From a virus, in the IMG/VR virus record IMGVR_UViG_3300013005_000128, positions 1-28,838 of that record: 28,838 nt of DNA. One strand, written 5' to 3'. The notes beneath the pieces were generated by a model. That model saw only the letters and a list, made by a program, of their open reading frames with translations, had not been told where the DNA came from and did no database searches. Position 1 is the first letter of the stretch, and each line of letters starts with the position of its first letter. Positions 2,612 to 20,400 of the stretch are shown in pieces. Made by a program: the position numbers and the translations under genes.

Positions 2612-2626
2612 TAAATTAAATAGCAA

Positions 2627-2665
2627 GCCGTTCCCCCTGCCCCTTACGTGGCGGCAGGGGGCGGC
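2627..2665 (+). other. Strong GC-rich intergenic hairpin
   Basis: GCCG-tt-CCCCCTGCC (2627-2641) pairs with GGCAGGGGG-CGGC (2653-2665) around an 11-base loop, giving 13 base pairs with a TT bulge. No T-run follows, so it is not a standard intrinsic terminator. It may slow polymerase, protect the upstream mRNA end, or be a processing site. It ends 20 bases before the next start codon. Confidence 0.7.
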
Positions 2666-2685
2666 TGCCTATCTAAGGATTATAA

Positions 2686-2991: not shown

Positions 2992-2993
2992 GC

Positions 2994-3017
2994 TGTCGAT
3001 ATGTTAATATATCGACA
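2994..3017 (+). repeat. Perfect inverted repeat upstream of portal
   Basis: TGTCGATAT (2994-3002) and ATATCGACA (3009-3017) form a perfect 9-bp stem with a 6-base loop, 33 bases before the portal GTG. It could be an RNA hairpin that tunes portal translation or a palindromic protein-binding site; there is no T-run. Confidence 0.6.
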
Positions 3018-3049
3018 TTGAGTTTTACTTATTTTGAAAGAGGTGATTG

Positions 3050-4771
3050 GTGAGCGGTATTGATTTCTCGCCTCCGAGTTATCGCGCAGCCTCTTCTGAC
3101 TTAACAATCTCTATCTCCCCACTGGGGCTTGTAGAGCTTGCAGATGAAGAGTTTGAAGTACACGGCCCTCGCTTAAACCGTTATTCTCTTAACTGGGCGA
3201 TGTACCTTGGTCATCACTATTCATACCGCCGTCAAACAGGCGAAGCACAGATCATGCTCAACTATTACAGAGCATTTACAGACTTTTTAATTAACTTTAC
3301 ATTTGGTAAGGGCGTTAACTTTCGCTCATCTAAATTAACAGAAGCTATTGTCCCTGACTTACTTGAACGCGTTTGGGAAGTAGATAACAACAAAGCTACA
3401 GTGCTTTGGGAGATTGGGCAGCAAGGCTCTGTTTCTGGAGATTGTTTTATCAAAGTAGCTTATGAAGAAGCTTGGGTTGATCCAGCTGGTAGAAACCACC
3501 CTGGCCGTGTACGCGTTCTCCCACTTAACTCATCTTTTGCTTTTCCAGAGTTTCACCCCCATGACCGCGAACGCTTAATCCGTTTCAAGCTTAAGTATCG
3601 TTTCTGGGGAACATCATTAGAAGGAACACGTCAAGTCTTTACTTACACAGAAATTTTGACAGACGACATCATTGAGGAATATATCAACGATGAGCTTATT
3701 GACTCTCGCCCTAACCCGCTTGGTACTATCCCTGTTGTTCATATTCCAAACGTTCGTATATCTGGTTCTCCTTGGGGCCTATCAGACTGCAATGACATTA
3801 TTAACATTAACCGTGCGTACAATGAAACCGCTACAGATATTGCGGACATCGTTAACTACCACGCAGCGCCAGTTACGGTCATCATTGGAGCAAAGGCATC
3901 TCAGCTAGAAAAGGGTGCTAATAAAGTTTGGGGCGGGCTTCCAAAAGACGCTAAGGTAGAAAACCTTGAAGGCGGAGCTCAAGGCTTAAAAGGCGCCATG
4001 GACTTCATGGCTTTACTAAAGAAGTCTATGCACGAGATGATTGGTGTTCCTGAAACCGCCCTTGGCCAAGCACAACCAATCTCTAACACCTCTGGCGTAG
4101 CGCTTTCTATTCAATTCCAGCCTTTGATGAACCGTTACCATCAAAAGATTATTCAATATGCGCACGGCTTGGAAAGAGTTAATGAGTTAATCCTTGTAAG
4201 CCTTGCAGTCAAAGAGCCTGAAACATTTATTTGGGATCCTAATTCCCACACGGTGCCTCTAAAGCCAGGCCAGGCAGCTCAATTAGATCCTAATGACCCA
4301 TTAACTTTTCAAAACTATGTTTATTTTCCACAGCCACTGCCTCTAGATAAACTTATTGCACTTAACGAGATTCAAAGCAAGCTGTCTCTAGGCCTTGAAT
4401 CTAAAGAAGGCGCCCTACGGGCACTTGGGGAAGAGTTCCCAGCGGCAAAACTTACAGAAATTCGTCAAGAACTTATTGAAGATGCTAAATCTGATGGCGC
4501 TCTCAAGTTGGTACAGACTCAAATTGAAAATGACATCATGATGCTAACTGGTATGCAGTCAGCACAGCCAGGGCCTGGCGGAGGCCCAGCTCAGCCTGTA
4601 GGTGGCGGCTCCCCTGAAGCAGGGGTTCCTCAATCTGTATTACCTCCAATAATTGACGACGCAACTATTGCCGCACAGATGGGCGACCAAGCCCTGCGCG
4701 GCAACCTCGTCACACAAGCTTATGGAACCCAACTCCCACAGAGACGTGTTCCAGAAGGCTATGAAAAATAA
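3050..4771 (+). CDS. Portal protein
   Basis: The portal forms the ring at one head vertex through which terminase pumps DNA. The 573-residue product has typical portal features: an N-terminal segment with a conserved-looking YYRAFTDFLINFTFGKG, a central beta-rich part, the helical stretch KKSMHEMIGVPETALGQ, then SNTSGVALSIQFQPLMNRY, and a long helical region after it. The C-terminus is Gly/Pro/Gln-rich and probably flexible. The start is read as GTG 3050, with an excellent AAAGAGGTGA site upstream; an adjacent TTG at 3047 is less suitable. A gap of 117 bases follows before the scaffold-like gene, in which I see only a ribosome binding site (AAAGGATG). Confidence 0.92.
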   Translation: MSGIDFSPPSYRAASSDLTISISPLGLVELADEEFEVHGPRLNRYSLNWAMYLGHHYSYRRQTGEAQIMLNYYRAFTDFLINFTFGKGVNFRSSKLTEAIVPDLLERVWEVDNNKATVLWEIGQQGSVSGDCFIKVAYEEAWVDPAGRNHPGRVRVLPLNSSFAFPEFHPHDRERLIRFKLKYRFWGTSLEGTRQVFTYTEILTDDIIEEYINDELIDSRPNPLGTIPVVHIPNVRISGSPWGLSDCNDIININRAYNETATDIADIVNYHAAPVTVIIGAKASQLEKGANKVWGGLPKDAKVENLEGGAQGLKGAMDFMALLKKSMHEMIGVPETALGQAQPISNTSGVALSIQFQPLMNRYHQKIIQYAHGLERVNELILVSLAVKEPETFIWDPNSHTVPLKPGQAAQLDPNDPLTFQNYVYFPQPLPLDKLIALNEIQSKLSLGLESKEGALRALGEEFPAAKLTEIRQELIEDAKSDGALKLVQTQIENDIMMLTGMQSAQPGPGGGPAQPVGGGSPEAGVPQSVLPPIIDDATIAAQMGDQALRGNLVTQAYGTQLPQRRVPEGYEK

Positions 4772-5703: not shown

Positions 5704-6774
5704 ATGGCATCATCCATTACAGGTACTGGCAATTTAGCCGCTGCGCCTACCGCGTACTCAGGTACCAATACCCAACTGACACAAGCGATCCAGACAATCT
5801 GGTCTAAGGAAATTCTTTTCCAGGCCATGCCAATCCTTCGCTTTGAGCAGTTTGCAGTTAAGAAGACAGAACTAGGCGTAGCGCCTGGTCTTCAGATTAA
5901 CTTTATGCGTTATAACAACCTCGGCTTCGCGGGTTCACTCGTTGAAGGCGTTCGTATGCAAACTAACGCACTAACAGCCCAACAGTTCTCAATCACAGTG
6001 TCAGAGCATGGATATGCTCTTGCTGTTTCAGAACTACTTCTAAACGCTTCATTCGATGACGTAATGGCTTCAGCCTCACGTCTTCTAGGTCGTAACATGG
6101 CTATCTATCTAGATCAGCTTTCACGCGACACACTATATGCAGCTACATCAACAATCTACGGTGAAGACCGCTCTAACCTCTCAGCAGTTAATAACTGGTA
6201 TGCAGATGGTACAAAGGGTACAAACCGCGCTTCTATGACAGGTGCCTTTAACTTGACACCAAAGACAGTCAAGGACGCAGTTGAGACACTTGCAACCAAG
6301 AACATCCCTCGCCTAGGTGAGACATATGTTGCTTTCATCCACCCACACCAAAGCCGTAAGCTTCGTGACAATCCAGAATTTATTGAAGTCACAAAGTACG
6401 CAGCTCCAGGTAACTTCATGCTTGGTGAGATCGGCCGTTTGTACGACACAGTATTCATTGAGACCACACAGGTTCTTAAGGTTGCTGGTGGTGCTGGCGC
6501 TGGCTACTCAGCTGATACAGCTGTTGCTAACCCAACAGTAACTGCTGGTGGAGGTTACACAACCCCTGCTACATTCACTGGCAACGGTGCATCTGATCGT
6601 TATTCAGCTATCTTCATTGGAGATAACGCATTCGGTCACGCAATCTCGCTTCCAGTTGAACTCCGCGATGGCGGTATTCTAGACTTCGGTCGTGAGCACG
6701 CACTTGCTTGGTACTCAATCTTTGGACTTGGTCTAATCACAGATCAGTCTGTAATCATTGCAGAAACCAACTAA
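5704..6774 (+). CDS. Major capsid protein, N4-gp56 type
   Basis: The shell subunit. The 356-residue product carries stretches I recognise from the N4-gp56 coat family: TQAIQTIWSKEILFQAMPIL near residue 25, PGLQINFMRYNNLG, then VSEHGYALAVSELLL and MAIYLDQLSRDTLYAAT. The C-terminal region (FIGDNAFGHAISLPVELRDG and REHALAWYSIFGLGLI) fits the same family. Start ATG 5704 has AAGGAG upstream, and a strong hairpin follows the gene. No prohead protease is encoded between portal and this gene, which fits coat proteins that mature without cleavage. The N4-type coat with a contractile tail shows the modular nature of the genome. Confidence 0.9.
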   Translation: MASSITGTGNLAAAPTAYSGTNTQLTQAIQTIWSKEILFQAMPILRFEQFAVKKTELGVAPGLQINFMRYNNLGFAGSLVEGVRMQTNALTAQQFSITVSEHGYALAVSELLLNASFDDVMASASRLLGRNMAIYLDQLSRDTLYAATSTIYGEDRSNLSAVNNWYADGTKGTNRASMTGAFNLTPKTVKDAVETLATKNIPRLGETYVAFIHPHQSRKLRDNPEFIEVTKYAAPGNFMLGEIGRLYDTVFIETTQVLKVAGGAGAGYSADTAVANPTVTAGGGYTTPATFTGNGASDRYSAIFIGDNAFGHAISLPVELRDGGILDFGREHALAWYSIFGLGLITDQSVIIAETN

Positions 6775-6786
6775 TACAACTGAATA

Positions 6787-6843
6787 GTGATGGGGCGAGG
6801 ATAAGCAAGGGCTGAAATTACGCTCGCACTCTCGCCCCATCAC
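6787..6843 (+). other. 13-bp perfect stem after the major capsid gene
   Basis: GTGATGGGGCGAG (6787-6799) is followed after 31 bases by its exact reverse complement CTCGCCCCATCAC (6831-6843). The stem starts 12 bases after the capsid stop. There is no T-run, so a simple terminator is unlikely; stabilising the abundant capsid mRNA or partial termination are plausible. Confidence 0.75.
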
Positions 6844-6876
6844 ACCCTTCCACAGTCACTAATTAGGAGAATATAA

Positions 6877-7239
6877 ATGGCTACAAAAAAGCCCACCGAT
6901 GTAACTGGTCGCATGCGTGAGCAGCAACTAGAAGATAATCTAGAAGTTATGCAGGAACGAGCAGCAGAGATGTCTATGGCATCAGCTAATGCCGCTGTAC
7001 GACTTGAAACAGAAGTTATTGATGCAACTAAGCCAGACCGTCAAACTATAATTGTTGATGAAGTAATCACCGTAGGTGAGTCAAATGACACAGTTGAAAT
7101 TCGTGTTATTGAAACAATTGAAAACATGACGCTTGGCGCAGGCAATAACTACAACTTCAAAGCTGGTCAAAAGTACAAAGTCACTAAACAAGTAGCTCAA
7201 CACCTTAAGGAAAAAGGCTACCTCGCAGGCGTAATCTAA
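6877..7239 (+). CDS. Small head-region structural protein
   Basis: Encodes 120 residues, start ATG 6877 with AGGAG 7 bases upstream. The N-terminal half is a charged helix (MREQQLEDNLEVMQERAAEM), the middle is beta-rich (QTIIVDEVITVGESNDTVEI), and the C-terminus reads NFKAGQKYKVTKQVAQHLKE then KGYLAGVI. That C-terminal pattern occurs in small phage proteins encoded next to the coat gene. Its separate leader between two hairpins suggests independent dosage. A decoration or head-completion role is possible but not demonstrated. Confidence 0.75.
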   Translation: MATKKPTDVTGRMREQQLEDNLEVMQERAAEMSMASANAAVRLETEVIDATKPDRQTIIVDEVITVGESNDTVEIRVIETIENMTLGAGNNYNFKAGQKYKVTKQVAQHLKEKGYLAGVI

Positions 7240-7257
7240 ATCAGTTAGACGCGGGGG

Positions 7258-7283
7258 GCGGGCTTTCGGGCCCGCTTCTTCGT
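7258..7283 (+). terminator. Possible rho-independent terminator
   Basis: GCGGGC (7258-7263), loop TTTCGG, GCCCGC (7270-7275), followed by TTCTTCGTTT. The stem is GC-rich, but the U-tract is interrupted, so termination is probably partial. It separates the small head protein from the connector gene. Confidence 0.6.
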
Positions 7284-7342
7284 TTATTAAGACTTTTTCT
7301 TTAAAAAGTGACACCATGTAACCTGAAAGGTAAGGATTAATA

Positions 7343-8401
7343 ATGGCCCTACTTGCAGACTTGGTAGCACGAGTTCGTACTGAATTAGGAGACTCTAAAA
7401 AGCAGTTTAGGTTTACCGATACAGGTACAGGCTCTGAAAAGAGCTTCTATTTAAATGCAAAACCTGTTGAATTAACAGGGCTATATGTAACTGTAGCGGG
7501 CACGGCTATTGCGTACCCAGCTGGCTATACCCTTGAAAGTGGTATTGGCGTCATTCACTTTGTAAACGCCCCAGCCCTTAACGCTGCAATTGTAGTTGAA
7601 GGCATGTCTTCAAGATATTTCTTAGATAGCGAGCTGGAAGAGTTTGTCAACACAGCCGTTCTACAGCACACAGACAACCGTACAGACCAGTTTGGTACCC
7701 AAGTAACCCTAGCGTCTCTACCGCCTGTTGAAGAGTACCCTGTGGCCATTCTGTCGGCTATTGAGGGCCTATGGACACTCGCAACCGACGCTGCTTTTGA
7801 CATTAACATCACCGCTCCAGATGGGGTTGTAATCCCACGCGCACAGCGCTATACCCAATTAACTGGAATTATTACCCAACGCGTAGAGCAGTACAAACAG
7901 TTATGCGCCGCGCTTAACATTGGTTTGTGGCGGTTGGAAATGGGCACTCTACGCAGAGTCTCACGAACAACTAACAAGCTAGTCCCTATCTACCTAGCTC
8001 AAGAGATTGATGACTCACGTCGTCCAGAGCGTATTTATATTAATAATGATTTGAAGGGCAGAACCCCACTGCCTTCTTACGCGGGCACCTATGACATTAT
8101 CCTTTATCAGGGTGATAACTGGTCGGGTACATTTGATTTCCCATTTGATGTAACTAATTTAAACTTTAAAGCTCAAGTACGAACTTACCCAAATAGCCCA
8201 GCTATTTATGCAACATTTACAATTACTAAGACCAGTGCTGTTAATGGAACTATTCTATTAACTCTTCCATCAAGTGCTACTAAGTACATGCCTGCACGAG
8301 CTTTTTGGGATCTACAAGCAACTATGGATTCTGACCCTGACTTTGAACAGACGTATGTTAGAGGCCAAATATTTACTCAACAACAAGTAACATTGGACTA
8401 A
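7343..8401 (+). CDS. Probable head-tail connector/adaptor with C-terminal beta domain
   Basis: A 352-residue protein starting MALLADLVARVRTELGD, a pattern common at the start of phage connector or adaptor proteins encoded after the coat gene. Residues to about 190 are a mixed region including LDSELEEFVNTAVLQH and a long helix. The last 110 residues are different: DIILYQGDNWSGTFDFPFDV followed by beta strands, which resembles beta-sandwich modules used in phage fibers and baseplates. The protein may therefore be a fusion of a neck-binding part with a fiber-anchoring part, which would fit the fiber genes starting two bases downstream. The connector role is inferred from position and the N-terminal pattern. 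Confidence 0.6.
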   Translation: MALLADLVARVRTELGDSKKQFRFTDTGTGSEKSFYLNAKPVELTGLYVTVAGTAIAYPAGYTLESGIGVIHFVNAPALNAAIVVEGMSSRYFLDSELEEFVNTAVLQHTDNRTDQFGTQVTLASLPPVEEYPVAILSAIEGLWTLATDAAFDINITAPDGVVIPRAQRYTQLTGIITQRVEQYKQLCAALNIGLWRLEMGTLRRVSRTTNKLVPIYLAQEIDDSRRPERIYINNDLKGRTPLPSYAGTYDIILYQGDNWSGTFDFPFDVTNLNFKAQVRTYPNSPAIYATFTITKTSAVNGTILLTLPSSATKYMPARAFWDLQATMDSDPDFEQTYVRGQIFTQQQVTLD

Positions 8402-10178: not shown

Positions 10179-11231
10179 ATGAGCCGTAAGTCGCTCGTAC
10201 CTGTAAACGTTCCAGCACTAGCTAGTGCTCCGTCCACACCTACCCTGCGTGCTGGCGACCTTTACTTTAATACGACCGACTCAACGCTCTACAGCTACAC
10301 AGGTGCTGCGTGGGCCGCTTCAGGCGGCGGCGGTAGCAGCTCAATCACCGTATCGGACACCGCGCCTGCCTCTCCTGGAGAAGGTGACTTGTGGTTTAAA
10401 TCAGATGTTGCTCAGACTTTTGTTTACTACGATAGCTTTTGGATTGAAATTGGCGTAGGCCCACAAGGCCCAGCTGGTCAAGCCACAATCAGCCGTTGGA
10501 AGAAGACAGTAGCTGGCGGAGAGACATCTCTTACTGGCAATGACGACAACTCAGTACCTTTGGCATATACCGTTCAAAAAGAACAGCTTTACTTAAACGG
10601 TGTTTTGCTTGTTCGAGGCTCAGATTACACAGCTACTACGGGAACATCTATTACTGGCCTAACCGCGTTATCTGCGGGAGACATTGTTGAGATCATTACC
10701 TTTGGTGAATTCATATTAAACAGCGGAATTAGCGTTAACACAATTGATGCTAAAGGTGACCTACTTGCTGGTACTGCCGCTGACACTATCGGCAAACTAG
10801 CAGTTGGAACTAACGGACAATACTTACAGGCTGACTCAAGTACTGCTACTGGACTTACTTGGTCAACAGTATCTGGATACTCAGCCCCGACACTAGGTTC
10901 AACATCTATTGCTTCTGGCGCAACAGTAGCAAATGTTGATGGGTTAACTATTAACTCAACTACTATTCCTACATCTAAAACTTTGGTTGCTACAGACTCA
11001 ACTGTCTATGTAGTACCAAGTCAGGCTGGAAACTCTGGTAAGTACCTAACTACCGATGGAACTACATCATCTTGGGGAACTGTTACTACTTACTCAGCCC
11101 CAACACTAGGCTCAACATCTATCGCCTCTGGTGCAACAGTGACAACAATTTCAGGTTTAACAGACATCGTATTAAACGGTCCTGGAAGTATTAAAGACGA
11201 ACTAACACTCATGCTTATGGGTGCCCTCTAA
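10179..11231 (+). CDS. Fiber protein with collagen-like segment
   Basis: A 350-residue fiber protein. The N-terminus has the fiber pattern AGDLYFNTTDSTLYSYTGAA and a second version (PGEGDLWFKSD), then a short collagen-like GPQGPAGQ, a globular part (LYLNGVLLVRGSDYTATTG), and fiber shaft repeats including NSGKYLTTDGTTSSWGTV and two copies of SAPTLGSTSIASGATV. It ends LMLMGAL, like the end of the fiber at 14531-15055 (FMLMGA), and both are followed by related small proteins. No SD-rich gap precedes it; the ATG is three bases after the upstream stop, so coupling is likely. Role: extended trimeric fiber, probably host contact. Confidence 0.82.
   Translation: MSRKSLVPVNVPALASAPSTPTLRAGDLYFNTTDSTLYSYTGAAWAASGGGGSSSITVSDTAPASPGEGDLWFKSDVAQTFVYYDSFWIEIGVGPQGPAGQATISRWKKTVAGGETSLTGNDDNSVPLAYTVQKEQLYLNGVLLVRGSDYTATTGTSITGLTALSAGDIVEIITFGEFILNSGISVNTIDAKGDLLAGTAADTIGKLAVGTNGQYLQADSSTATGLTWSTVSGYSAPTLGSTSIASGATVANVDGLTINSTTIPTSKTLVATDSTVYVVPSQAGNSGKYLTTDGTTSSWGTVTTYSAPTLGSTSIASGATVTTISGLTDIVLNGPGSIKDELTLMLMGAL
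10878..11140 (+). repeat. 50-base direct repeat within a fiber gene
   Basis: Copies at 10878-10927 and 11091-11140 differ at five positions, all synonymous, so both encode SAPTLGSTSIASGATV exactly. The repeat forms part of the fiber shaft. Confidence 0.85.
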
Positions 11232-11249
11232 CACGAAAGGTAGTAACTA

Positions 11250-11555
11250 ATGGCTACTCTAACTAAGGCGCTGTTCCGCGGAGCTGCGACCACTACAACA
11301 ACAACTACGTTATACACAGTGCCTAGCGCTACAACTACAGTTGTAACAGATATTATTGTGGTTAATACAGCATCTTCAGCGGGTACTTTTACATTAGCTC
11401 TTGCTGGAACCTCATTAGCAACCACTGTTGCTGTTGGCGCAAACGATTCAACCGTTATTCCTATTAAACAAGTTTTGGTTGCGACAAATACAATTCAAGG
11501 CGGGGCCTCCGCTACAACAATTAACTTCCACATTTCTGGAGTAGAGATTTCGTAA
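11250..11555 (+). CDS. Small fiber-associated beta protein
   Basis: A 101-residue Thr/Val/Ala-rich beta protein preceded by GAAAGGTAG. The core TTTLYTVPSATTTVVTDIIV and following VNTASSAGTFTLAL aligns with the protein at 15057-15383 (ATALYTVPSSKEAVVSSISI, NLASSSATYRIAI) and more weakly with 23006-23302. Both closer relatives follow fibers that end in MLMGA, so the pair fiber plus small protein seems to be a duplicated unit. It could be a cap or a chaperone that remains attached to the fiber. It ends with a TAATG overlap with the next gene. Confidence 0.75.
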   Translation: MATLTKALFRGAATTTTTTTLYTVPSATTTVVTDIIVVNTASSAGTFTLALAGTSLATTVAVGANDSTVIPIKQVLVATNTIQGGASATTINFHISGVEIS

Positions 11556-12478
11556 TGGCCGCAAAAGTATTTAAATTTTCTAATTTAACAATAAAAGCCA
11601 TTTCGCAGACTTATCACAATAGTATGTCGGCGGCGAATGGAAACCCTTTTGCGGGATCTACCGGAACTGACATCTCTACCTCTGGATTTTGGATTCAACA
11701 ATTTACTGGCACTGGTTCATTAGTTACAAGCAGAACTATGAACATTGATTACTTAGTAGTTGCTGGCGGTGGCGCAGGCGCTTATGGTGGAGGTGGCGCA
11801 GGTGGAATGAAAACTGGAACAACTAATGCTACTCCCTCTGGAACCTACACCATAACAGTAGGTGCTGGCGGTACTTCTAAAAATGGAGTACGTGCCCAAG
11901 GCGGTACGCAAGGAAATAGTGGTAGCAACAGTTCTATAGCATTTCCTACTGCAATTACATCAACAGGTGGCGGTGGTGGCGGTGGCGTAGCGGACGCAAA
12001 CTCACCAAACGCTTTGGGAGCTGAAGGCGCTAATGGCGGTTCTGGCGGAGGTCAAGGTTCTAACTACAACACTGCGCAAACAGGCGTTGGCGGAACTGGT
12101 ATCTCTGGACAAGGTTTTGCTGGTGGTGCAGGTGGTGGGTACAATCCAACAAACGGCTATCGTGCTGGCGGTGGCGGTGGTGCTGGCGCTGTAGGTGGTA
12201 ACGTATCAGGTGGAACAGGCGGTAATGGTGGAGTTGGACTTCAATCTTCAATTACTGGAACCTCAACTTATTATGCTGGCGGCGGTGGCGGCAGCGGTGG
12301 ACAAGCCAATGGAACTGGTGGTTTAGGTGGCGGTGCTAACGCTAACCCTACTGGCACTGGCACCGCTGGAACGGCAAACAGAGGCGGTGGAGGTGGTGGC
12401 TGCGCTCCCATTAGTGCTGGTTACGGCACTACTGCTGCTGGTGGTTCGGGAATTATTATAGTAAGTGTGGCTAAATAA
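11555..12478 (+). CDS. Glycine-rich fiber tip/adhesin-like protein
   Basis: A 307-residue protein with an N-terminal domain of about 65 residues (FKFSNLTIKAISQTYHNSM...) and then DYLVVAGGGAGAYGGGGAGG, the entry into a long glycine-rich region that continues to the C-terminal GGSGIIIVSVAK. Such regions are known from phage adhesins, where glycine-rich helices pack into a lattice with receptor-binding loops at the tip; here the loops between Gly runs vary (NPTNGYRAG, NYNTAQTGVG). It starts on the last base of the preceding stop (TAATG). The probable role is receptor recognition. Confidence 0.8.
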   Translation: MAAKVFKFSNLTIKAISQTYHNSMSAANGNPFAGSTGTDISTSGFWIQQFTGTGSLVTSRTMNIDYLVVAGGGAGAYGGGGAGGMKTGTTNATPSGTYTITVGAGGTSKNGVRAQGGTQGNSGSNSSIAFPTAITSTGGGGGGGVADANSPNALGAEGANGGSGGGQGSNYNTAQTGVGGTGISGQGFAGGAGGGYNPTNGYRAGGGGGAGAVGGNVSGGTGGNGGVGLQSSITGTSTYYAGGGGGSGGQANGTGGLGGGANANPTGTGTAGTANRGGGGGGCAPISAGYGTTAAGGSGIIIVSVAK

Positions 12479-13326
12479 TGGCTTATTTTGCACAATTAAA
12501 TGAAAATAATATTGTTCTACAGGTCTTGGGCGTAGATAATAAAGATATAACTATTGATGGCGTTGAGTCAGAGCAAGCAGGAATTGATTTTCTTGCTGCC
12601 CTTGGATTGGGCTCTAACTGGCTTCAAACTTCCTTTAACGGAAACATCAGAGCGAAGTTTGCTGGTATAGGTGATGTTTATGATCCTATTGAAGATGTTT
12701 TTACTTTGGCAGAGATTGATGCGCCTCATAATAAAATTTCTTGGGGCGGCATACTTACGCCAACAAGCCCATCTATTCTTGTTGATTCCGCACCGCGTTC
12801 AGCAAACCAATTCTTTAATGAAGTTTTAGTACAGGCATTTCCGCAAGCATTTCATAGGTGGGGATACTTACATCAACATAATTCAAAGTCATTTGCTAAA
12901 GGCATAGGTAAGTTTGATGTTGTTGCAACTATAGTTCGTAACCCTATTGATAGCGTAGCTTCGTCAATACTTGCTTTCAATTTAACAACTGACGAGAGCA
13001 TCGTTGAGCAGTTAAAAGAAACCTTAAAAATGTTAACTGCTACAAAAGACAACAAGGCAAATATTCTTGTATTTGATTTCAATAGCATAACGGCAGACCC
13101 TACCGTTGCGGTAGCAGTTATTGCTGCACGTTTAGGTGTAACGGCAGAACCTTACAACGCAGAAACAATTACAGAACTACTTAGAATGTTTGAAATAAGT
13201 TCAACTTATTCTTTGCCAATTAATAATAATGACTTACTAGATGAGGCTAAAAGCACTCTTACAGGTGCAGGGTTTGCAGAGTTATTGACTCAATGTACAG
13301 ACCTATATAACGAGCTTATTGCCTAA
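12478..13326 (+). CDS. Phage tail-region N-terminal domain fused to a sulfotransferase-like domain
   Basis: Two parts in 282 residues. Residues 1-75 (MAYFAQLNENNIVLQVLGVD, WLQTSFNGNIRAKFAGIG, YDPIEDVF) match a small domain I know from many phage tail-region proteins, also present as a 29-residue remnant at 20438. Residues about 97-282 look like a PAPS-dependent sulfotransferase: DSAPRSANQFF (103-113) fits the 5'-phosphosulfate loop, VRNPIDSVASS (153-163) fits the 3'-phosphate-binding motif, and ILVFDFNSITADP then IAARLGV fits the usual strand and helix after it. The canonical SGT of the loop is SAN here, so activity is not certain. The next gene encodes an APS-kinase-like protein, the enzyme type that makes PAPS, and the two overlap by one base. 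Confidence 0.75.
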   Translation: MAYFAQLNENNIVLQVLGVDNKDITIDGVESEQAGIDFLAALGLGSNWLQTSFNGNIRAKFAGIGDVYDPIEDVFTLAEIDAPHNKISWGGILTPTSPSILVDSAPRSANQFFNEVLVQAFPQAFHRWGYLHQHNSKSFAKGIGKFDVVATIVRNPIDSVASSILAFNLTTDESIVEQLKETLKMLTATKDNKANILVFDFNSITADPTVAVAVIAARLGVTAEPYNAETITELLRMFEISSTYSLPINNNDLLDEAKSTLTGAGFAELLTQCTDLYNELIA

Positions 13327-14078
13327 TGATTATTCAAATAATTGGACTACCGGGATCGGGTAAAACCGCCCTTGCGGAACTACTCGCAGATCGAATCAAT
13401 GCTATTCACTTCAACGCTGATAAAGTGCGAGCTGATCTAAACTCAGATTTAGGGTTTTCCCCCGCCGATCGTATTGAACAAGCTCGCCGCATGGGGGCAC
13501 TAGCTCGCCTTACCAGCTCTCAAGGCTATATAACTGTTGTGGATTTTGTCTGTCCTACAGAAGAAACCCGCTCTGCTTTTGGTAAACCTGATGCTTTAAT
13601 CTGGGTAAACCGGATTGAGGTTGGCCGGTTTGAGGACACTAACAAGATGTGGGAAAGCCCAAGTAATGCGGATGTAACCATCCTTGACGGGATGACCCTT
13701 GAAGCAGAAGTTGACTTAATTATCAGAAAGTTTGAGCTTCCAGACTGGAAAGCCCCTACTACCCTTCTCCTTGGTCGCTACCAACCTTGGCATGAAGGTC
13801 ACGAAACATTAAAGGAAAAAGCCCATGAGCGAACAGAACAAGTCGTCATTGCCGTCCGAGACACCTGCGGAACCTCAGACAAAGACCCGCTCAGCTTTAA
13901 AGATGTTAAGCGCCATATTGTTCAAGGAACAGCCAGATCTCCTTTTGTAATAAAGGTGCCTAACATAACCAACATTGTGTATGGTCGAGATGTGGGGTAC
14001 AAGATTGAGCAGATTGATCTTGGCGCGGAAGTACACTCTATCTCAGCTACTCAAAAGCGTAAGGAGTTAGGGATATGA
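13326..14078 (+). CDS. APS kinase-like domain fused to a nucleotidyltransferase domain
   Basis: Residues 1-137 resemble adenylylsulfate kinase, which phosphorylates APS to PAPS: P-loop GLPGSGKT (7-14), FNADKVRADLNSDLGFS (29-45), DRIEQARRMGALARL (48-62) and VVDFVCPTEETR (71-82) align in order with CysC motifs. Residues 144-250 are a HIGH-type nucleotidyltransferase: LLLGRYQPWHEGH (147-159) and C-terminal ISATQKR (239-245). That second domain is closer to NMN- or CMP-transferase patterns than to ATP sulfurylase (which has QxRNPxHxxH), so a full PAPS synthetase is not proven. A NadR-like role is an alternative, but the CysC motifs argue against it. ATG overlaps the preceding stop by one base. 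Confidence 0.82.
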   Translation: MIIQIIGLPGSGKTALAELLADRINAIHFNADKVRADLNSDLGFSPADRIEQARRMGALARLTSSQGYITVVDFVCPTEETRSAFGKPDALIWVNRIEVGRFEDTNKMWESPSNADVTILDGMTLEAEVDLIIRKFELPDWKAPTTLLLGRYQPWHEGHETLKEKAHERTEQVVIAVRDTCGTSDKDPLSFKDVKRHIVQGTARSPFVIKVPNITNIVYGRDVGYKIEQIDLGAEVHSISATQKRKELGI

Positions 14079-14342: not shown

Positions 14343-14531
14343 ATGGCAATTGACTTTCCAAATTCACCAAGCGTGAATGACACATACGCAGTAGGAAGCC
14401 GTACTTGGACTTATACTGGTACAGCTTGGGTATTGACCGGATCTGTGGGCTTGCCTGATGGTGGTGTGTTAGACGGCGGACAGCCCTCTACAACTACCCA
14501 GTACTACACCTATAGCGGAGGAACACCCTAA
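14343..14531 (+). CDS. Short fiber-type N-terminal domain protein
   Basis: Encodes 62 residues: MAIDFPNSPSVNDTYAVGSR followed by TWTYTGTAWVLTG, a short motif very common at the base of phage fibers. The start has AGAGG eight bases upstream, after a 61-base gap, so this is a new translation entry after the sulfation cassette. It stops with TAATG, overlapping the next fiber gene. It may be the detached first domain of that fiber or a small connector protein. Confidence 0.75.
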   Translation: MAIDFPNSPSVNDTYAVGSRTWTYTGTAWVLTGSVGLPDGGVLDGGQPSTTTQYYTYSGGTP

Positions 14532-15055
14532 TGGCAGTTAATACATTAATGCAGATCCGCCGCGGTACTGCCGCGGCTTGGACTTCTGCCAACCCTACTC
14601 TTGCCGCAGGCGAGTGGGCGCTAGAAACTGATACTAAGCTCCTTAAGATGGGCGATGGCTCTACAGTGTGGACTTCATTAGCTTATGTAGTTCCAACTCA
14701 AACTGGCCAATCAGGTAAATATCTAACTACTAACGGAACCGTTACAAGTTGGGGAACTGTCGCTGGAGATATTGAAGGCGTAACAGCAGGAACTGGTTTA
14801 ACTGGTGGTGGAACAAGTGGAACAGTAACTGTCGGACTTGATACTGCAAGCGCTTATGTTGTGCCAACGCAAACTGGTCAGTCTGGTAAGTATCTAACTA
14901 CAGATGGAACAGCATCTTCTTGGGCAACCGTAGATGCGCTCCCAACACAAACAGGAAACAGCGGAAAGTACCTGACTACTAACGGTAGCGCAGCTTCATG
15001 GGCTACAATTGTTACTGATCCAACACCTTCTATCTTCATGCTTATGGGAGCCTAA
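14531..15055 (+). CDS. Fiber protein with Mtd_N-like head and shaft repeats
   Basis: The N-terminal 50 residues (LMQIRRGTAAAWTSANPTLA, GEWALETDTKLLKMGDG) match the Mtd_N-type domain that attaches fibers in several phages, including the major tropism determinant of Bordetella phage. The rest holds three shaft repeats of the form PTQTG-SGKYLTT-G---SWATV (about residues 53-78, 110-135, 137-160), also present once in the fiber at 10179-11231, and a GVTAGTGLTGGGTSGTVTVG segment. The protein ends FMLMGA. No C-type-lectin variable domain or diversity-generating repeat is seen. It is 174 residues, short for a full fiber, so the small downstream protein may form the tip. Confidence 0.8.
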   Translation: MAVNTLMQIRRGTAAAWTSANPTLAAGEWALETDTKLLKMGDGSTVWTSLAYVVPTQTGQSGKYLTTNGTVTSWGTVAGDIEGVTAGTGLTGGGTSGTVTVGLDTASAYVVPTQTGQSGKYLTTDGTASSWATVDALPTQTGNSGKYLTTNGSAASWATIVTDPTPSIFMLMGA

Positions 15056-15056
15056 T

Positions 15057-15383
15057 ATGGCAAAGAAAGTACTCGGCCAGTCCAATCCAGCAGCTACTAC
15101 AGCCACCGCGCTGTACACAGTTCCTTCATCGAAGGAGGCGGTGGTTTCATCCATCTCTATCTGTAACCTAGCTTCTTCATCTGCTACCTACCGTATTGCT
15201 ATCCGCCCAGCGGGAGCTACTCTAGCTAATCAACACTACTTAGCTTATGACGTAACAGTTGGCGCCGCGGATACCACAATCATCACAGTAGGTATCACAC
15301 TAGCTACTACTGACGTTATTACTGTCTACGCCTCAACCGCTAACCTAGCCTTTTCAGCATTTGGAGATGAGGCTTCCGTCTAA
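15057..15383 (+). CDS. Small fiber-associated beta protein, paralogue of 11250-11555
   Basis: A 108-residue protein from ATG 15057, one base after the preceding stop. An upstream in-frame start at 15009 would overlap the fiber gene more deeply and is less likely. The core ATALYTVPSSKEAVVSSISI is related to the protein at 11250-11555. It is beta-rich, without membrane segments. Being placed after a fiber ending MLMGA in both cases argues for a shared task, such as capping or folding that fiber. It ends with a TAATG overlap with the first gene of the tandem array. Confidence 0.75.
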   Translation: MAKKVLGQSNPAATTATALYTVPSSKEAVVSSISICNLASSSATYRIAIRPAGATLANQHYLAYDVTVGAADTTIITVGITLATTDVITVYASTANLAFSAFGDEASV

Positions 15384-15946
15384 TGTCTATTACTAGCGCT
15401 AAGTCTGGTGCGACAGGTATCAGTCTCGCGCTAGACAATAACTTTATGGAGCCTATTGCCAGCACTTTGCTGTCGGCTAATACTAATACAGTTATATTTA
15501 GTGACATACCTCAGACATACAAGCATTTGCAGGTAAGATATTTAGCAAAATCGGGTAGAGTGCAAAATCTTGCTGGTCAAATGGCTATGAGATTTAACGG
15601 TAGTTATGCTGCAAGAGGTCATAATTTATACGGCGACGGCGCTGGTGTTGCCGCTAATAGTTATGTGCCAGCAATAGGTGAATTTGCTTTAGCGGCAACA
15701 GGAAGTACTGCGGGCAGCGCTTTTGGTGCTGGTATTATTGATATTTTAGATTACGCAAACACCAATAAAAACAAAACTATTAGGTCGTTAACAGGTGCAG
15801 ATATTAACGGTTCGGGAAATATATTTCTTTCGTCGCAATTGATAAACAGCACCACGGAAATATCATCAATTACTTTTGAAACTTTAGATGGTGGAACTAA
15901 TCTCCAACAATACTCCCGTTTCTCACTATACGGAATCAAAGGGTAA
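15383..15946 (+). CDS. Array protein A1 (fiber-tip-like paralogue)
   Basis: First of the nine LYGI paralogues; 187 residues. Subfamily A marks: an N-terminal extension of about 35 residues, then IPQTYKHLQVRYLAKSG, FNGSYAARGH, IIDILDYANTNKNKTIRSL and the end LQQYSRFSLYGIKG. Beta-rich, with no signal peptide or membrane segment. The sampled DNA is AT-rich (about 40% GC on one 60-base stretch), lower than in A3. Its ATG shares a base with the stop of the small beta protein before it. Probable role: a small fiber tip or decoration protein; this is inferred from the island it lies in. Confidence 0.78.
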   Translation: MSITSAKSGATGISLALDNNFMEPIASTLLSANTNTVIFSDIPQTYKHLQVRYLAKSGRVQNLAGQMAMRFNGSYAARGHNLYGDGAGVAANSYVPAIGEFALAATGSTAGSAFGAGIIDILDYANTNKNKTIRSLTGADINGSGNIFLSSQLINSTTEISSITFETLDGGTNLQQYSRFSLYGIKG

Positions 15947-15948
15947 TT

Positions 15949-16431
15949 ATGGCTGCAAAGACAGGCACATACACTTTGATTGCTAGCACTACATTAAGCA
16001 GTGCAGGTGGTGCAACATTTAGTAGCGTACCTCAGACCTATACCGATTTGGTTGTTGTTGTAAATGTGTCAGCATCTCAAACTCCTGTAAATAGTGGATT
16101 GCGTTTTAATGGTGATAGTGGAACAAATTATTCTAGTACAAGAATTACTGGCGATGGTAGCAGTGCTTCATCATCAAGAGATAGCAATGATGATGTTTTA
16201 AGAACTGGTGTTGTAAGCACAAATAGCGTAGTAATATCTCACATATTTGATTATGCCAATACAACTACTTATAAAACTGTAATATCTAGAGGAAGTGGGG
16301 CTTCTGATCGTGTTGCTGCTTTTGTAGGTATGTGGAGAAATACTGCTGCAATAACTACAGTGTTTGTAACAAACTTAAATTATCCAATAGGAACAACCTT
16401 TAGACTATTTGGGATTGAGTCGGCAAAGTAA
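15949..16431 (+). CDS. Array protein B1 (fiber-tip-like paralogue)
   Basis: 160 residues. Subfamily B marks: TYTLIASTTLSS at the start, then SVPQTYTDLVVVVNVS, RFNGDSGTNYSSTRITGDG, IFDYANTTTYKTVISR, MWRNTAAITTV and the end GTTFRLFGIESAK. It lacks the N-terminal extension of A genes. The RBS is AAAGGG inside the end of A1, five bases before ATG 15949. The last motif is LFGI here instead of LYGI. Sampled DNA is AT-rich (about 38% GC over 60 bases). Confidence 0.78.
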   Translation: MAAKTGTYTLIASTTLSSAGGATFSSVPQTYTDLVVVVNVSASQTPVNSGLRFNGDSGTNYSSTRITGDGSSASSSRDSNDDVLRTGVVSTNSVVISHIFDYANTTTYKTVISRGSGASDRVAAFVGMWRNTAAITTVFVTNLNYPIGTTFRLFGIESAK

Positions 16432-16931
16432 TGGCGCTACAGTTATTTAAAATTGCTGACACCACTGTCTCTAGCCCACAGGCTACCGTTGAGTTTACAT
16501 CTATACCTCAAGTCTACACCGATTTAAAAATTGTAATGTCAGTGCGTTCTGCCAACGCAAGCAACTTTGACAATCCACGCATATCAATTAACGGTAGCAC
16601 TTCAACATTTACTCGCAGAGAAATCTATGGTGAGTCAGGTTCTGTTGGTTCAGAATCAGTAGCGGACCGCATTATTGGAAACTGTCCAGCCGCTAGTGTA
16701 ACTGCCAGCACGTTTGGTTCACTAGAATTTTATTTGCCAAACTACACAAGTTCTAACTACAAATCTTGGTCATCTGATTCGGTAACAGAAAATAACTCAA
16801 CAACAAATTCAATGTGGTTACTTGCTGGTTTATGGAGTACCGTTACAGCAGTTTCTACAATTGCGGTTTCATTACAGACAAGTGCCAACTTTGTTACTAA
16901 CTCAACCTTCACACTTTACGGAGTCCTATAA
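16431..16931 (+). CDS. Array protein C1 (fiber-tip-like paralogue)
   Basis: 166 residues. Subfamily C marks: LFKIADTTVSS, IPQVYTDLKIVMSVRS, INGSTSTFTRREIYGESGS, TASTFGSLEFYLPNYTSSNY and KSWSSDSVTENNSTTN, ending NSTFTLYGVL. The first base of ATG is the last of the B1 stop (TAATG). The C-type PNYT motif replaces the DYA of A genes at the same place, so the three subfamilies are alignable but clearly distinct. GGAG encoded by the terminal YGV codons is a usable ribosome binding site for A2. Confidence 0.78.
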   Translation: MALQLFKIADTTVSSPQATVEFTSIPQVYTDLKIVMSVRSANASNFDNPRISINGSTSTFTRREIYGESGSVGSESVADRIIGNCPAASVTASTFGSLEFYLPNYTSSNYKSWSSDSVTENNSTTNSMWLLAGLWSTVTAVSTIAVSLQTSANFVTNSTFTLYGVL

Positions 16932-17530
16932 TGGCTATTAGAAGTCTTAAGACAGGGTCTTTAAGTAGAAGCGCTCAAGCTGGAAACACCATGATCTTTC
17001 CTGGCTCGTACGAGTCTATTGCTACTGTGACTGTCGGTGCAGGCGGTGCAAGTTCTATTACATTTAGTTCTATACCTGCAACCTATAGTCACTTACAGAT
17101 TCGCGGCATAAGTCGTGTTGGTTCTGCTGGCTCTGGTGCAGGCACAAATGATTTATTAGTGCAATTCAATGGAGTCACAACTTCAACTTACTCAAGACAC
17201 GCTTTATATGGAACAGGTAGCGCAGCAGGTGTTAATGGTTCAGGGTCAAACACTTCAGCATACGCAGCAAGAGCAGTAACCCCGCGTTCTGGTATTACAG
17301 CAAGCGTATTTGGAACATTTGTAATTGACATTCTTGACTATGCCGACACAAACAAATTCAAAACAATTCGTTCGTTAGCGGGTATGGATTCAAACGATAC
17401 TAATGGCATTGTTGCACTTGCTTCAGGTTCTTCACAATCCACTTCAGCAGTATCAAGCATCACCCTGTTTGATGAATCTTCTTTTAGTTTTGTCCAATAC
17501 TCACAATTTGCACTTTATGGGGTGAAATAA
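16931..17530 (+). CDS. Array protein A2 (fiber-tip-like paralogue)
   Basis: 199 residues, the longest array member. Subfamily A marks: an N-terminal extension (MAIRSLKTGSLSRSAQAGN...), TVGAGGASSITFSSIPATY followed by SHLQIRGISR, FNGVTTSTYSRHALYG, VIDILDYADTNKFKTIRSL and VQYSQFALYGVK. It resembles A3 around TVGAGGA-SIT-SSIPA more than A1. A Gly/Ser/Ala insert (GTGSAAGVNGSGSNTSAYAA) sits in the variable middle, which in this family is where lengths differ most and could be a surface loop. Confidence 0.78.
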   Translation: MAIRSLKTGSLSRSAQAGNTMIFPGSYESIATVTVGAGGASSITFSSIPATYSHLQIRGISRVGSAGSGAGTNDLLVQFNGVTTSTYSRHALYGTGSAAGVNGSGSNTSAYAARAVTPRSGITASVFGTFVIDILDYADTNKFKTIRSLAGMDSNDTNGIVALASGSSQSTSAVSSITLFDESSFSFVQYSQFALYGVK

Positions 17531-17531
17531 T

Positions 17532-18038
17532 ATGCCAGCAGGAATGACTTATACACCAATTGCTAGAACTACTCTTAGTTCTAGTTCTTCAACCGTTACT
17601 TTTAGTTCAATTCCTGCTACTTATACAGATTTGGTAGTGTCAATAGGGATTGCTGGTTTATCAGCACAGGAAACGCCAAGGATGTATTTTAATGGCGACA
17701 CTAGCGCTTTATATTCAACTACATTTATAGACGGAAATGGAACCTCTGTTTTAACAAATAGAACAACTGGTCAAAGTTCATTTTATGGTATTGGTGCGTA
17801 CAACTCTGGTAACCCTACTGGGGTGAGCAGCATATTAGTAAATATAAATAACTACTCTAATACAACAACTTTCAAAAATATGATAGCGCGTAGCGCTGCT
17901 GCAACTTTGTCAACAAACTTAACTGTAGGACTGTATCGTTCTACTTCCGCTGTTTCTTCTATTAGTTTTATTGTTCACGGTGGAAATAGTTATTTACCTG
18001 GCTCAACCTTTACGTTATATGGAATTGCGGCGGCTTAA
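17532..18038 (+). CDS. Array protein B2 (fiber-tip-like paralogue)
   Basis: 168 residues. Subfamily B marks: TYTPIARTTLSSSSSTVTFS, then SIPATYTDLVVSIGIAG, YFNGDTSALYSTTFIDGNG, NINNYSNTTTFKNMIAR, LYRSTSAVSSI and the end PGSTFTLYGIAAA. One base separates it from the A2 stop; GGGGTGA within the A2 end lies about six bases before the ATG. The start MPAGM-TYTPIA is close in form to B3 MPLPS-TYIPIA, supporting common descent of the B genes. Confidence 0.78.
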   Translation: MPAGMTYTPIARTTLSSSSSTVTFSSIPATYTDLVVSIGIAGLSAQETPRMYFNGDTSALYSTTFIDGNGTSVLTNRTTGQSSFYGIGAYNSGNPTGVSSILVNINNYSNTTTFKNMIARSAAATLSTNLTVGLYRSTSAVSSISFIVHGGNSYLPGSTFTLYGIAAA

Positions 18039-18566
18039 ATGTCATATACATATAGCAAGATAGCCTCATATACTGTTGGCTCTGGCGGAATTAGCGAAGT
18101 AAGTTTCTTAGCGATACCTCAAAACTACACCGATTTAGTAATTAAGGTTTCAGCAAGAACTGCCTATACTGCTGGCAGTTATGGCGATGGATTAAATATA
18201 TCTTTCAACTCAAGTACCACTGGTTACACATACAGATACTTACAAGGTTACGACTCTACTGCTTCTTCTGCCAGCGGAAGCACTCAACTTACTGGTTTGA
18301 TTCCAGATGATGCTACTGCACAGACAGCAAATGTGTTTAGCAACAATGAAATTTATATTCCAAATTATACAAACGCAAATAATAAATCTTATTCCGTTGA
18401 TAATGTGGTTGAAAAGAATGGCACAACTAACTGGGTGCTTTCAATGTATGCTGGTCTTTGGTCAAATACAGCAGCAATAACTTCTATTGGTTTGACATCA
18501 TCAAACGCTTCAACTTTCAAACAACACTCAACCTTCTCCCTCTACGGAATTAAGGCGGAAGTATAA
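18039..18566 (+). CDS. Array protein C2 (fiber-tip-like paralogue)
   Basis: 175 residues. Subfamily C marks: YSKIASYTVGSGGISEV, IPQNYTDLVIKVSARTAY, FNSSTTGYTYRYLQGYDST, TANVFSNNEIYIPNYTNANN followed by KSYSVDNVVEKNGTTN, MYAGLWSNTAAITSI and HSTFSLYGIKAEV. It starts directly after the B2 stop with no gap. The TVGSGG-S and IPQNYTDL stretches are shared with C3, and KNGTTN parallels NNSTTN in C1. AAGGCGGAAG encoded at its C-terminus can serve as ribosome binding site for A3. Confidence 0.78.
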   Translation: MSYTYSKIASYTVGSGGISEVSFLAIPQNYTDLVIKVSARTAYTAGSYGDGLNISFNSSTTGYTYRYLQGYDSTASSASGSTQLTGLIPDDATAQTANVFSNNEIYIPNYTNANNKSYSVDNVVEKNGTTNWVLSMYAGLWSNTAAITSIGLTSSNASTFKQHSTFSLYGIKAEV

Positions 18567-19141
18567 TGTCAGTAGTAAGCCTTAAATATAAAACTAAAGC
18601 AGGCACCCTTACTGCCCCTGGCGATGTAGACCTTGGCGCGATGGTTCCATTGGCTACGAGCACAGTTGGGGCTGGCGGAGCTGCCTCTATTACTCTTAGC
18701 TCTATCCCCGCCTACTACGAGCATTTACAGATCCGCTGGGTAGCCAGAGGTTCATCTTTAGCTGGACTGTATTGGACATTTAACGGCGACACTGGCGCTA
18801 ACTACTCTAGAAACCGCATTAGCGCAGCTGGCACTCCTGGCGTTTCTGGCCTTGCGAGCCAAGCAAACATTTACACTGTTGCTCAATGGGGCATACCTAC
18901 TGGAGCTAGTATTTTTGCTGGCGGCGTGTACGAGATCCTTGACTACGCAAACGTAAGCAAAAACAAAACGCTGCGCGGAATTGCTGGTCAAGACTCTACT
19001 GCTTCTGGCGGGTGTGAGTTTATCTCTGGTCTATGGATGAGCACAGCCGCGATTACATCTATAACAGTTACGCCAAACGTTGGCACGTTTCAACAGTACA
19101 CTTCATTTGCTTTATACGGTATTGAAAGGGCAGGTGCGTAA
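18566..19141 (+). CDS. Array protein A3 (fiber-tip-like paralogue)
   Basis: 191 residues. Subfamily A marks: N-terminal extension (MSVVSLKYKTKAGTLTAPGD), TVGAGGAASITLSSIPAYY then EHLQIRWVARG, FNGDTGANYSRNRISAAG, VYEILDYANVSKNKTLRGI, GLWMSTAAITSITV and QQYTSFALYGIERAGA. A 60-base sample has about 57% GC, clearly above the A1 sample, and codon choice here looks like the phage core genes. It overlaps C2 by one base. Confidence 0.78.
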   Translation: MSVVSLKYKTKAGTLTAPGDVDLGAMVPLATSTVGAGGAASITLSSIPAYYEHLQIRWVARGSSLAGLYWTFNGDTGANYSRNRISAAGTPGVSGLASQANIYTVAQWGIPTGASIFAGGVYEILDYANVSKNKTLRGIAGQDSTASGGCEFISGLWMSTAAITSITVTPNVGTFQQYTSFALYGIERAGA

Positions 19142-19644
19142 TGCCTTTGCCATCAACTTATATTCCAATTGCTACAGTAAAGACCACCGCGGAAGTGGCA
19201 ACTATAACTATGTCTAATATCCCGCAGACGTACACTGATTTAATTTTAGTTGCTACCTGCGGCAACCCTAGCTCAGCAGTAAACTACAATTTACGGTTTA
19301 ATGGTGACGCTGGCTCAAACTATTCAACTACCTACATGGTATCCAGCGGCGGTACGCTTAGCGGCGGGTCAACCGCGGCTGTCCAAGATAAAGTGTATTT
19401 AACGCAAACTGGCGCTAACTTGGCAGGTAAATGGGGAAGTCAGATCAACCATATTATGAACTACTCAAGCACTAATACTTTTAAAACAGTGCTTAGTCGA
19501 ATGAGCTCTGATATTGAAGTGGCGTTAAACACATCTATTTACAAAACTACCACCGCTATTACCTCTGTAACTATCCTAAGTAATGAGGTACAAATCTATA
19601 CAACTGGTTCTTACTTTACTTTGTATGGGTTGAAGGCAGCATAA
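19141..19644 (+). CDS. Array protein B3 (fiber-tip-like paralogue)
   Basis: 167 residues. Subfamily B marks: STYIPIATVKTTAEVATITM, SNIPQTYTDLILVATCG, RFNGDAGSNYSTTYMVSSGG, IMNYSSTNTFKTVLSR, IYKTTTAITSVTIL and the end TGSYFTLYGLKAA. It contains a single cysteine (in ATCG). One-base overlap with A3 and with C3. A 60-base sample has about 60% GC, higher than B1. GAAGG near the end is placed seven bases before the C3 start. Confidence 0.78.
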   Translation: MPLPSTYIPIATVKTTAEVATITMSNIPQTYTDLILVATCGNPSSAVNYNLRFNGDAGSNYSTTYMVSSGGTLSGGSTAAVQDKVYLTQTGANLAGKWGSQINHIMNYSSTNTFKTVLSRMSSDIEVALNTSIYKTTTAITSVTILSNEVQIYTTGSYFTLYGLKAA

Positions 19645-20153
19645 TGGCTAATTACATACCTATTTCCACAGTCACTGTTGGCTCAGGTGGAGCTTCTAGT
19701 ATTAACTTTATCGACATCCCGCAAAACTACACTGACTTAAACGTGTTACTTTCTGTTCGGTCTAACACTGGTGGAGCTTTTGCGGGGTTAGTTATTGCGT
19801 TTAACGGTTCAACCTCGGGGTACACCCTGACTTGGTTAGGTGATGCTAACGGGGCCGCGGTTACTTACACCTATTCCGCTTTTGGCTACAACCACATTGC
19901 TTACATTCCTGGGTCTGCTGCCACCGCCAACTCATTTGGAAGCGTAACGTTTACTATGCCAGACTACACATCCTCTCACGCTAAAGCCGTAAATGTAGAT
20001 GGCGCCAACACAAACAACGCATCAACCATTTACCAAGGTCTATCTATAGGCTCATGGAGCGGAACAGACCCTGTTAGATCTTTGTCTTTTACAACAGGTG
20101 GAAGTTTTGTACAATATTCAACCGCTACACTTTACGGCATCCGTAAATACTAA
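19644..20153 (+). CDS. Array protein C3 (fiber-tip-like paralogue)
   Basis: 169 residues, last of the array. Subfamily C marks: YIPISTVTVGSGGASSINF, IPQNYTDLNVLLSVRSN, FNGSTSGYTLTWLGDANG, TANSFGSVTFTMPDYTSSHA then KAVNVDGANTNNAST and YSTATLYGIRKY. The array ends here; the next gene has its own AAGGAG in a 16-base gap, so a new translational entry begins. The middle (AAVTYTYSAFGYNHIAYIPG) is the most divergent part relative to C1 and C2. Confidence 0.78.
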   Translation: MANYIPISTVTVGSGGASSINFIDIPQNYTDLNVLLSVRSNTGGAFAGLVIAFNGSTSGYTLTWLGDANGAAVTYTYSAFGYNHIAYIPGSAATANSFGSVTFTMPDYTSSHAKAVNVDGANTNNASTIYQGLSIGSWSGTDPVRSLSFTTGGSFVQYSTATLYGIRKY

Positions 20154-20169: not shown

Positions 20170-20400
20170 ATGACAGATACAAAGATCGTCGTAAACTGCG
20201 AAACAGGTGAGACTCAAGTCGTTACCTTGACCAGCGAAGAGATCGCTCAGCGTGAAGCAGATGCCGCAGCCTTTGCTGTAGCAGAAGCAGAGCGCGTAGC
20301 AGCAGCAGAAGCACTGGCTGCCCTAAAGGCATCAGCTAAGGCCAAGCTTGTGGCAGGCACACCCCTAACACCAGAAGAGGCTGAAACCCTCGTTCTTTAA
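20170..20400 (+). CDS. Small fiber-region protein with Ala/Glu-rich helix
   Basis: 76 residues from ATG 20170, chosen because AAGGAG lies eight bases upstream; the in-frame extension to 20098 would run back into C3. Begins MTDTKIVVNCETGETQVVTL followed by TSEEIAQREADAAAFAVAEA, a long amphipathic helix of Ala, Glu and Arg, then KASAKAKLVAGTPLTPEEAE. Proteins starting this way are common next to phage fiber genes, where a helper role in fiber assembly is often proposed. That is an analogy from position; I see no specific catalytic motif. Confidence 0.75.
   Translation: MTDTKIVVNCETGETQVVTLTSEEIAQREADAAAFAVAEAERVAAAEALAALKASAKAKLVAGTPLTPEEAETLVL

Follow-up and report, generated by a model that had tools for sequence, protein, structure and literature searches.

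Results and Discussion

Nine back-to-back open reading frames on the + strand, each coding for 160–199 amino acids, occupy positions 15383–20153 of the window, as we call the whole stretch of 28,838 nucleotides that was analyzed (IMG/VR virus record IMGVR_UViG_3300013005_000128, from a freshwater phage). The gaps between them range from −1 to +2 bases; the start of C1 and the stop of B1, for example, overlap by one base. All nine proteins are homologous, with 22–43% identity among them, and a search of the whole record found exactly these nine family members. They belong to three classes (A, B and C) and are numbered by unit in the following list, in which the cultured Planktophila phages E7 and F5 (LanE43AprE7 and AprF5; OX376640 and OX376641) serve for comparison.

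14531..15055, + strand: upstream fibre protein with an N-terminal Mtd_N domain and the C-terminal end IFMLMGA
15057..15383, + strand: small protein of 108 amino acids (phrog_1276) between the fibre gene and A1, at the same place in phage E7
15383..15946, + strand: A1, first subunit of unit 1, with address peptide t1 at residues 1–25, MSITSAKSGATGISLALDNNFMEPI
15949..16431, + strand: B1, second subunit of unit 1, with the class-B Arg at family column 119
16431..16931, + strand: C1, third subunit of unit 1, with the class-C Asp at column 119
16931..17530, + strand: A2, first subunit of unit 2, with address peptide t2, MAIRSLKTGSLSRSAQAGN...
17532..18038, + strand: B2, second subunit of unit 2
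18039..18566, + strand: C2, third subunit of unit 2
18566..19141, + strand: A3, first subunit of unit 3, with address peptide t3 (MSVVSLKYKTKAGTLTAPGDVDLGA)
19141..19644, + strand: B3, second subunit of unit 3
19644..20153, + strand: C3, third subunit of unit 3
20170..20400, + strand: small downstream protein (MTDTKIVVNCETGE...), at the same place behind the trio in E7 and F5

The nine proteins gave no reliable match in Pfam or PHROGs, where no family covers them, and a profile search of the PDB with the family gave no match. The array lies within the tail-fibre region and adjoins fibre genes: the Mtd_N fibre protein and PHROG tail-fibre matches flank it, and tail sheath and tube are found further on. 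From its position and the same gene order in E7, the fibre protein at 14531..15055 is likely the carrier of the tip. A protein similar to the small downstream one was seen by eye behind the trio in loci L259 and L504.

Two parallel sets are found in the window (10179–11555 and 14531–15383), each consisting of a fibre protein with MLMGA(L) at its C-terminal end and, behind it, a phrog_1276 protein of about 100 amino acids; downstream of the first set lies a glycine-rich protein, downstream of the second the nine-gene array. The protein at 11555–12478 is glycine-rich and encoded by a separate open reading frame (PF21722). At 12478–14078 one protein combines a phage-specific N-terminus (phrog_7759) with a weak match to sulfotransferases; behind it lies an APS-kinase domain fused to a part that weakly resembles a cytidylyltransferase. 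Together these proteins could make and use a sulfate donor beside the fibre genes.

Three classes in a fixed order

In the phylogenetic tree of the nine proteins A, B and C each form a clade (support 82/87, 98/97 and 94/96, respectively), and every window gene has a member of its own class as best blastp match, with identities within the classes of the window of 32–43%. Given three clades of three, a perfect repeating order such as the observed ABC-ABC-ABC is expected by chance in 6 of 1680 cases. An earlier note on this DNA, made from the letters alone, had described the nine paralogues as A-B-C three times and had named a grouping by unit as the outcome that would refute it. Trees forcing such unit monophyly were rejected (AU p 0.0004 for A1B1C1, 0.0007 for A2B2C2 and 0.0006 for A3B3C3, all below 0.001), and thus the claim stands. 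The motifs given there were also right, with HLQ..R and I(L)DY(A) marking A, TY/F-K..(S/A)R marking B and P(N/D)YT marking C.

Scans of IMG/VR with profiles of the three classes, together with a scan of genome contigs, gave at least 486 loci (L numbers) from at least 320 distinct contigs. The members were sorted by a profile scan of all open reading frames using class HMMs derived from 290 domains that had been checked on a tree; as the scans pick by similarity, the sample consists of the matches listed and is not exhaustive. The 208 complete viral arrays among these matches comprise 194 ABC, 8 ABCABC and 4 ABCABCABC arrays, so that 206 of the 208 are pure (ABC)n (n = 1–3) in the same order and on the same strand, the other two being one BACBAC array and one ABC array with a distant lone domain. 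Incomplete patterns were seen where arrays reach contig ends, and as no incomplete unit occurs among the complete arrays listed, ABC is the basic unit. The same order sought in other phages recurs on viral contigs, and the 206 pure arrays bear out the suggestion that a whole three-gene cassette was duplicated with selection for keeping all three kinds. Phages as a rule have a single ABC set, and the threefold form of the window is the rarer exception. The class labels on the tree of 290 non-redundant domains (from the matches listed) need 2 changes, which is the minimum, and the commonest spacing between B and C is a one-base overlap (at least 120 cases).

E7 and F5 each have a single trio in the same gene context. 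The terminase of the window is closest to those of Streptomyces phages such as BRock (54%), which together with the trio in two phages of Ca. Planktophila points to actinobacterial hosts, presumably also for the window itself. Between E7 and F5, which share the same host strain, B, C and the 138 residues of A held by the F5 locus are 100% identical within a surrounding alignment of 96.8% identity, a comparison of two phages and as such too small for a test.

Address peptides and docking slots

The family domain begins at median residue 26 in A and at residue 1 in B and C (among the matches listed). The N-terminal extension had been described before as a feature of A, and this holds for the window; among relatives it is the first gene of the unit that bears the extension. 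In L247 (3229–6513, BACBAC) and L018 (4321–5986, BACABC) the leading class-B gene is extended and the A gene behind it has no extension, with the class residues unchanged despite the rare BAC order. The extension as a property of class A was therefore dropped.

The three A genes of the nine-gene phages carry different peptides, namely t1 (SITSAKSGATGISLALDNNFMEPI), t2 (AIRSLKTG.FSRS..VGN) and t3 (SLKYKSK.G.LTAPGD), and the window, L024, L025, L026 and L023 share this order, in which the peptides mark units 1, 2 and 3. Phage E7 and the loci L059, L106 and L108 have three extended genes in succession, of which the third is the A gene of an ABC trio and the first two encode one glycine-rich protein each (277–309 amino acids) with t2-like peptides. 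The peptide of the second glycine-rich protein in this group is nearly identical to the unit-2 address of the window, as seen for A2 and the slot-2 protein of E7. The trio A in slot 3 gives a weaker t3-like match, and as the slot-1 peptide type is weak (15–18 bits, scored t2-like), the matching of slots is based on the order and on slots 2 and 3. The proteins in slots 1 and 2 are probable adhesins, and since these slots are held by single glycine-rich proteins, an ABC trio stands in for one polypeptide and contributes a single address. The LGIxASS-type address, present on many single-unit A genes, was found on no other protein, and thus the interchange is shown solely for the t2-like and t3-like types.

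In trees of the nine-gene phages C1, C2 and C3 form unit groups (98, 87 and 93) and A and B do so less cleanly; the orthology of units 1, 2 and 3 between phages is partial. The unit-1 A domain of L023 pairs with the unit-2 A domain of L026 at 100%, yet it has kept the unit-1 address. We read these trees as suggesting an ancient triplication and then an exchange of domains behind fixed addresses. Among the matches listed, C-terminal extensions of more than 80 amino acids are found on C (25 cases) and B (11) and never on A, and N-terminal extensions of this length on A (11), B (1) and C (1). The C-terminal extensions inspected are glycine-rich and resemble the window protein at 11555–12478. Moreover, L014 (8001–9320) and L020 (1–1065) encode fusions in which an Fn3-like stretch links the C of one unit with the A of the following unit (units 1 and 2 in L014), suggesting that head-to-tail stacking of units is possible. 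Extensions and fusions are consistent with the N-terminus of A lying near the fibre and the C-terminus of C pointing outward.

Predicted fold and a class-specific sheet face

The AlphaFold2 monomer of C2 (58 rows in the alignment) has a pLDDT of 88.5 and a pTM of 0.86 and is nearly all beta, with twelve strands. For the trio we modeled L048, in which A, B and C are in frame and two stops were read as Gly, together with 57 read-through rows of other loci. The alignment used in-frame pairs, as lone B and C rows were placed unreliably on their own parts, and the placement of the rows was verified on a local alignment of nearly equal rows. The resulting A-B-C chain of 542 residues has a pLDDT of 81.8 and a pTM of 0.77, and solely the A address (1–32) and one linker fall below pLDDT 50. 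In our judgement three unpacked beads would score a clearly lower pTM, a reading that applies to a single linked chain, in which the linkage itself can favour packing. Searching the PDB for the fold gave no Foldseek match below E 0.001; the best VIA-align Z was 7.7, to GH32 beta-domains and lectins, which is within the range of models without a clear match. In BFVD 198 matches below E 0.001 were obtained, mostly to uncharacterized phage proteins and some to proteins annotated as tail-fibre or collagen-repeat proteins.

The interface analysis covered 308 aligned trios among the matches listed. Column 119 is Leu in 87% of A, Arg in 95% of B and Asp in 89% of C, and all nine window genes show the class residue there (A: Leu, Leu and Ile; B: Arg; C: Asp). 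Column 117 holds Arg, Leu or Ile, and Ser in A, B and C, respectively, and the other most class-divergent columns include 105, 64, 103, 135, 121, 35 and 33. In four strands the mean divergence is 1.01 for odd and 0.17 for even columns, with a p value of 8e-7 that is descriptive, as the segments were picked after ranking. Every second side chain of a strand points to the same side of its sheet, which places the class-specific residues on a single sheet face. If column 119 faces its equivalents across the axis, the charges of the B Arg or C Asp would clash in homotrimers of B or C. For each of the three subunit pairs the mutual information peaks where the alignment positions are equal (mean Z 0.87–0.99 vs 0.01–0.12 in shuffled pairings), as expected of residues near a pseudo-threefold axis, and shared residue alphabets could be an alternative cause of this signal. 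The cyclic consistency of the inter-subunit couplings did not separate the two orientations. The joint loss of Arg and Asp at column 119 (8/9; Fisher 1e-11) was discarded as a signal, as it is not significant after phylogeny with 2–3 independent events.

The proposed A:B:C tip

The reading that we favour, with a probability of roughly 0.74, is that A, B and C would form a heterotrimer that acts as a receptor-binding fibre tip and docks through A. Classes, order, obligate trio, address peptides and sheet face were derived from the sequences, and a 1:1:1 stoichiometry, fibre docking and receptor binding are what we infer. The three paralogous beta-sandwich domains would assemble into one pseudo-threefold knob with each subunit in a fixed place, and this knob would dock at its site on the tail fibre through the N-terminal peptide that the first gene (A) encodes. 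B and C, which have no address, would be recruited by binding A; their C-termini would point outward and be able to bear further glycine-rich adhesin domains, and exposed loops of the knob would bind the host surface. A three-part fibre tip had already been suggested, and it best explains the address peptides, the sheet face that distinguishes the classes and the packing in the AlphaFold2 model, the heterotrimer being the proposed part of it. In the window phage the cassette would have been copied to three units, whose three addresses would give three knobs at three fixed docking sites per tail. We propose only tentatively, and at somewhat less than even odds, that each tail carries three unlike A:B:C knobs at fixed sites of one fibre complex, so that none of the nine subunits is repeated and each slot is filled over evolution by a trio or by a single glycine-rich adhesin. 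That the units of one phage each meet a different receptor, as the earlier note suggested, is possible; the clear difference between the units is the docking address.

Alternatively, A, B and C could each form their own homotrimer, stacked as beads along the fibre with A nearest to it, followed by B and C. This would agree with the fixed order, with C-terminal extensions being commonest on C as the last gene, and with the fusion in L014, by which units are at least linkable head to tail. We regard it as improbable, as B and C have nothing ahead of their domain to hold a preceding bead, B also bears C-terminal adhesins in the 11 cases listed, L247 shows the BAC order with unchanged class residues, and the conserved Arg of B and Asp of C would be unlikely in homotrimers if their face is the subunit interface. 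Markedly less probable still is that ordinary homotrimeric fibres use the three classes as alternative adhesins, a repertoire retained for host-range switching and not joined in any complex. The region is indeed adaptive, and the paper on E7 and F5 places three such proteins in a hypervariable host-recognition island (PMC10202952), but losses, extra copies and changes of order would then be expected, whereas whole trios make up 206 of the 208 complete arrays among the matches listed and the address is on the first gene only. Within the window, identities of no more than 32–43% inside a class do not fit a recent local duplication. Phage tail regions often contain tandem paralogues, but such a duplication without functional meaning is refuted by conservation, namely by units that are partly orthologous across phages and by a family found in at least 320 distinct contigs, nearly always as trios.

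Comparison with known systems

The tips of phage fibres are nearly always homotrimers, and thus the receptor meets three equal faces. If the obligate A:B:C heterotrimer is true, three faces could evolve independently while being joined in one knob, the slot addresses would let whole knobs be swapped, and the class-specific sheet face would be a simple sequence rule for the placement of the subunits. The gp38 of T-even phages is one polypeptide with polyglycine helices. Like the proposed ABC tip it is an asymmetric receptor-binding piece that caps the fibre, and in the phages studied here glycine-rich proteins occupy the same slots; in contrast to gp38, ABC consists of three beta-rich subunits. 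The tail spikes of Ackermannviridae are each placed by their own N-terminal docking part, and each spike is a homotrimer, unlike the heterotrimer proposed for ABC. Their branched complex (PMC11414711) resembles the proposed ABC tip in joining several receptor-binding proteins in one complex. The gp38 of phage PP01 has been described (PMC12892980).

The closest parallel is the virophage DSLV2 (Aquatic Virophage 1 lineage), for which a heterotrimeric tail fibre encoded by three genes was reported in 2025 using co-expression and native PAGE (PMC12724248). As in the ABC family, three adjacent paralogues in a fixed order form clades by position, the DSLV2 proteins clustering by position and not by virus (PMC12724248). 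The DSLV2 proteins co-purify as a heterotrimer when co-expressed (PMC12724248), whereas ABC is known here from sequences and an AlphaFold2 chain. DSLV2 also differs in being a virophage without a phage tail and in the reported PF07484 collar and T4 gp37-tip fold, and neither repeated cassettes nor address peptides are described for it (PMC12724248). For the phage tail collar domain PF07484 no match was found in the nine window proteins and 58 aligned members. A full-text search of open-licence papers gave this one report of a heterotrimeric three-gene fibre and no description of such a fibre in a tailed phage, the absence being weak evidence.

In the paper on E7 and F5 'three proteins encoding DUF2541' are mentioned in the host-recognition island and no joint complex is proposed (PMC10202952). 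These are probably the ABC trio, a link that we draw ourselves; DUF2541 gave no match in the set scanned, namely 58 family members at E 0.1 and the nine window proteins at E 1. Unlike the window, E7 and F5 have one trio and not three, slots 1 and 2 of E7 being filled by glycine-rich proteins. Uncultured aquatic phages commonly carry the family, and as its trio also occurs in two cultured phages of Ca. Planktophila, an abundant freshwater bacterium, the question is directly testable.

Diverged members

Diverged trios occur on three contigs of one Acidimicrobiaceae MAG (L259, L504 at 6561–8238 and L505 at 2467–3596; one is truncated by the contig end), in the order of an extended gene, an A-like gene of the HLQ type without extension, and a third gene. 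Among 396 genomes of the phylum of this MAG, the family was found only in the MAG itself. Lone diverged domains form the C-terminal ends of other proteins in L058 (15118–16386) and L448 (3776–4570), and both contigs also carry a normal trio. Family domains at the C-terminus of fibre proteins are seen as class A in the long fibre-like proteins of L017 and L058, and in L260 (6972–8492, a Desulfosporosinus genome), where a fibre of 506 amino acids beside P2-like tail genes ends in a single diverged domain (residues 345–506). This single-domain fibre has Ile at column 119, without the class signature, and is a possible homotrimeric ancestor form.
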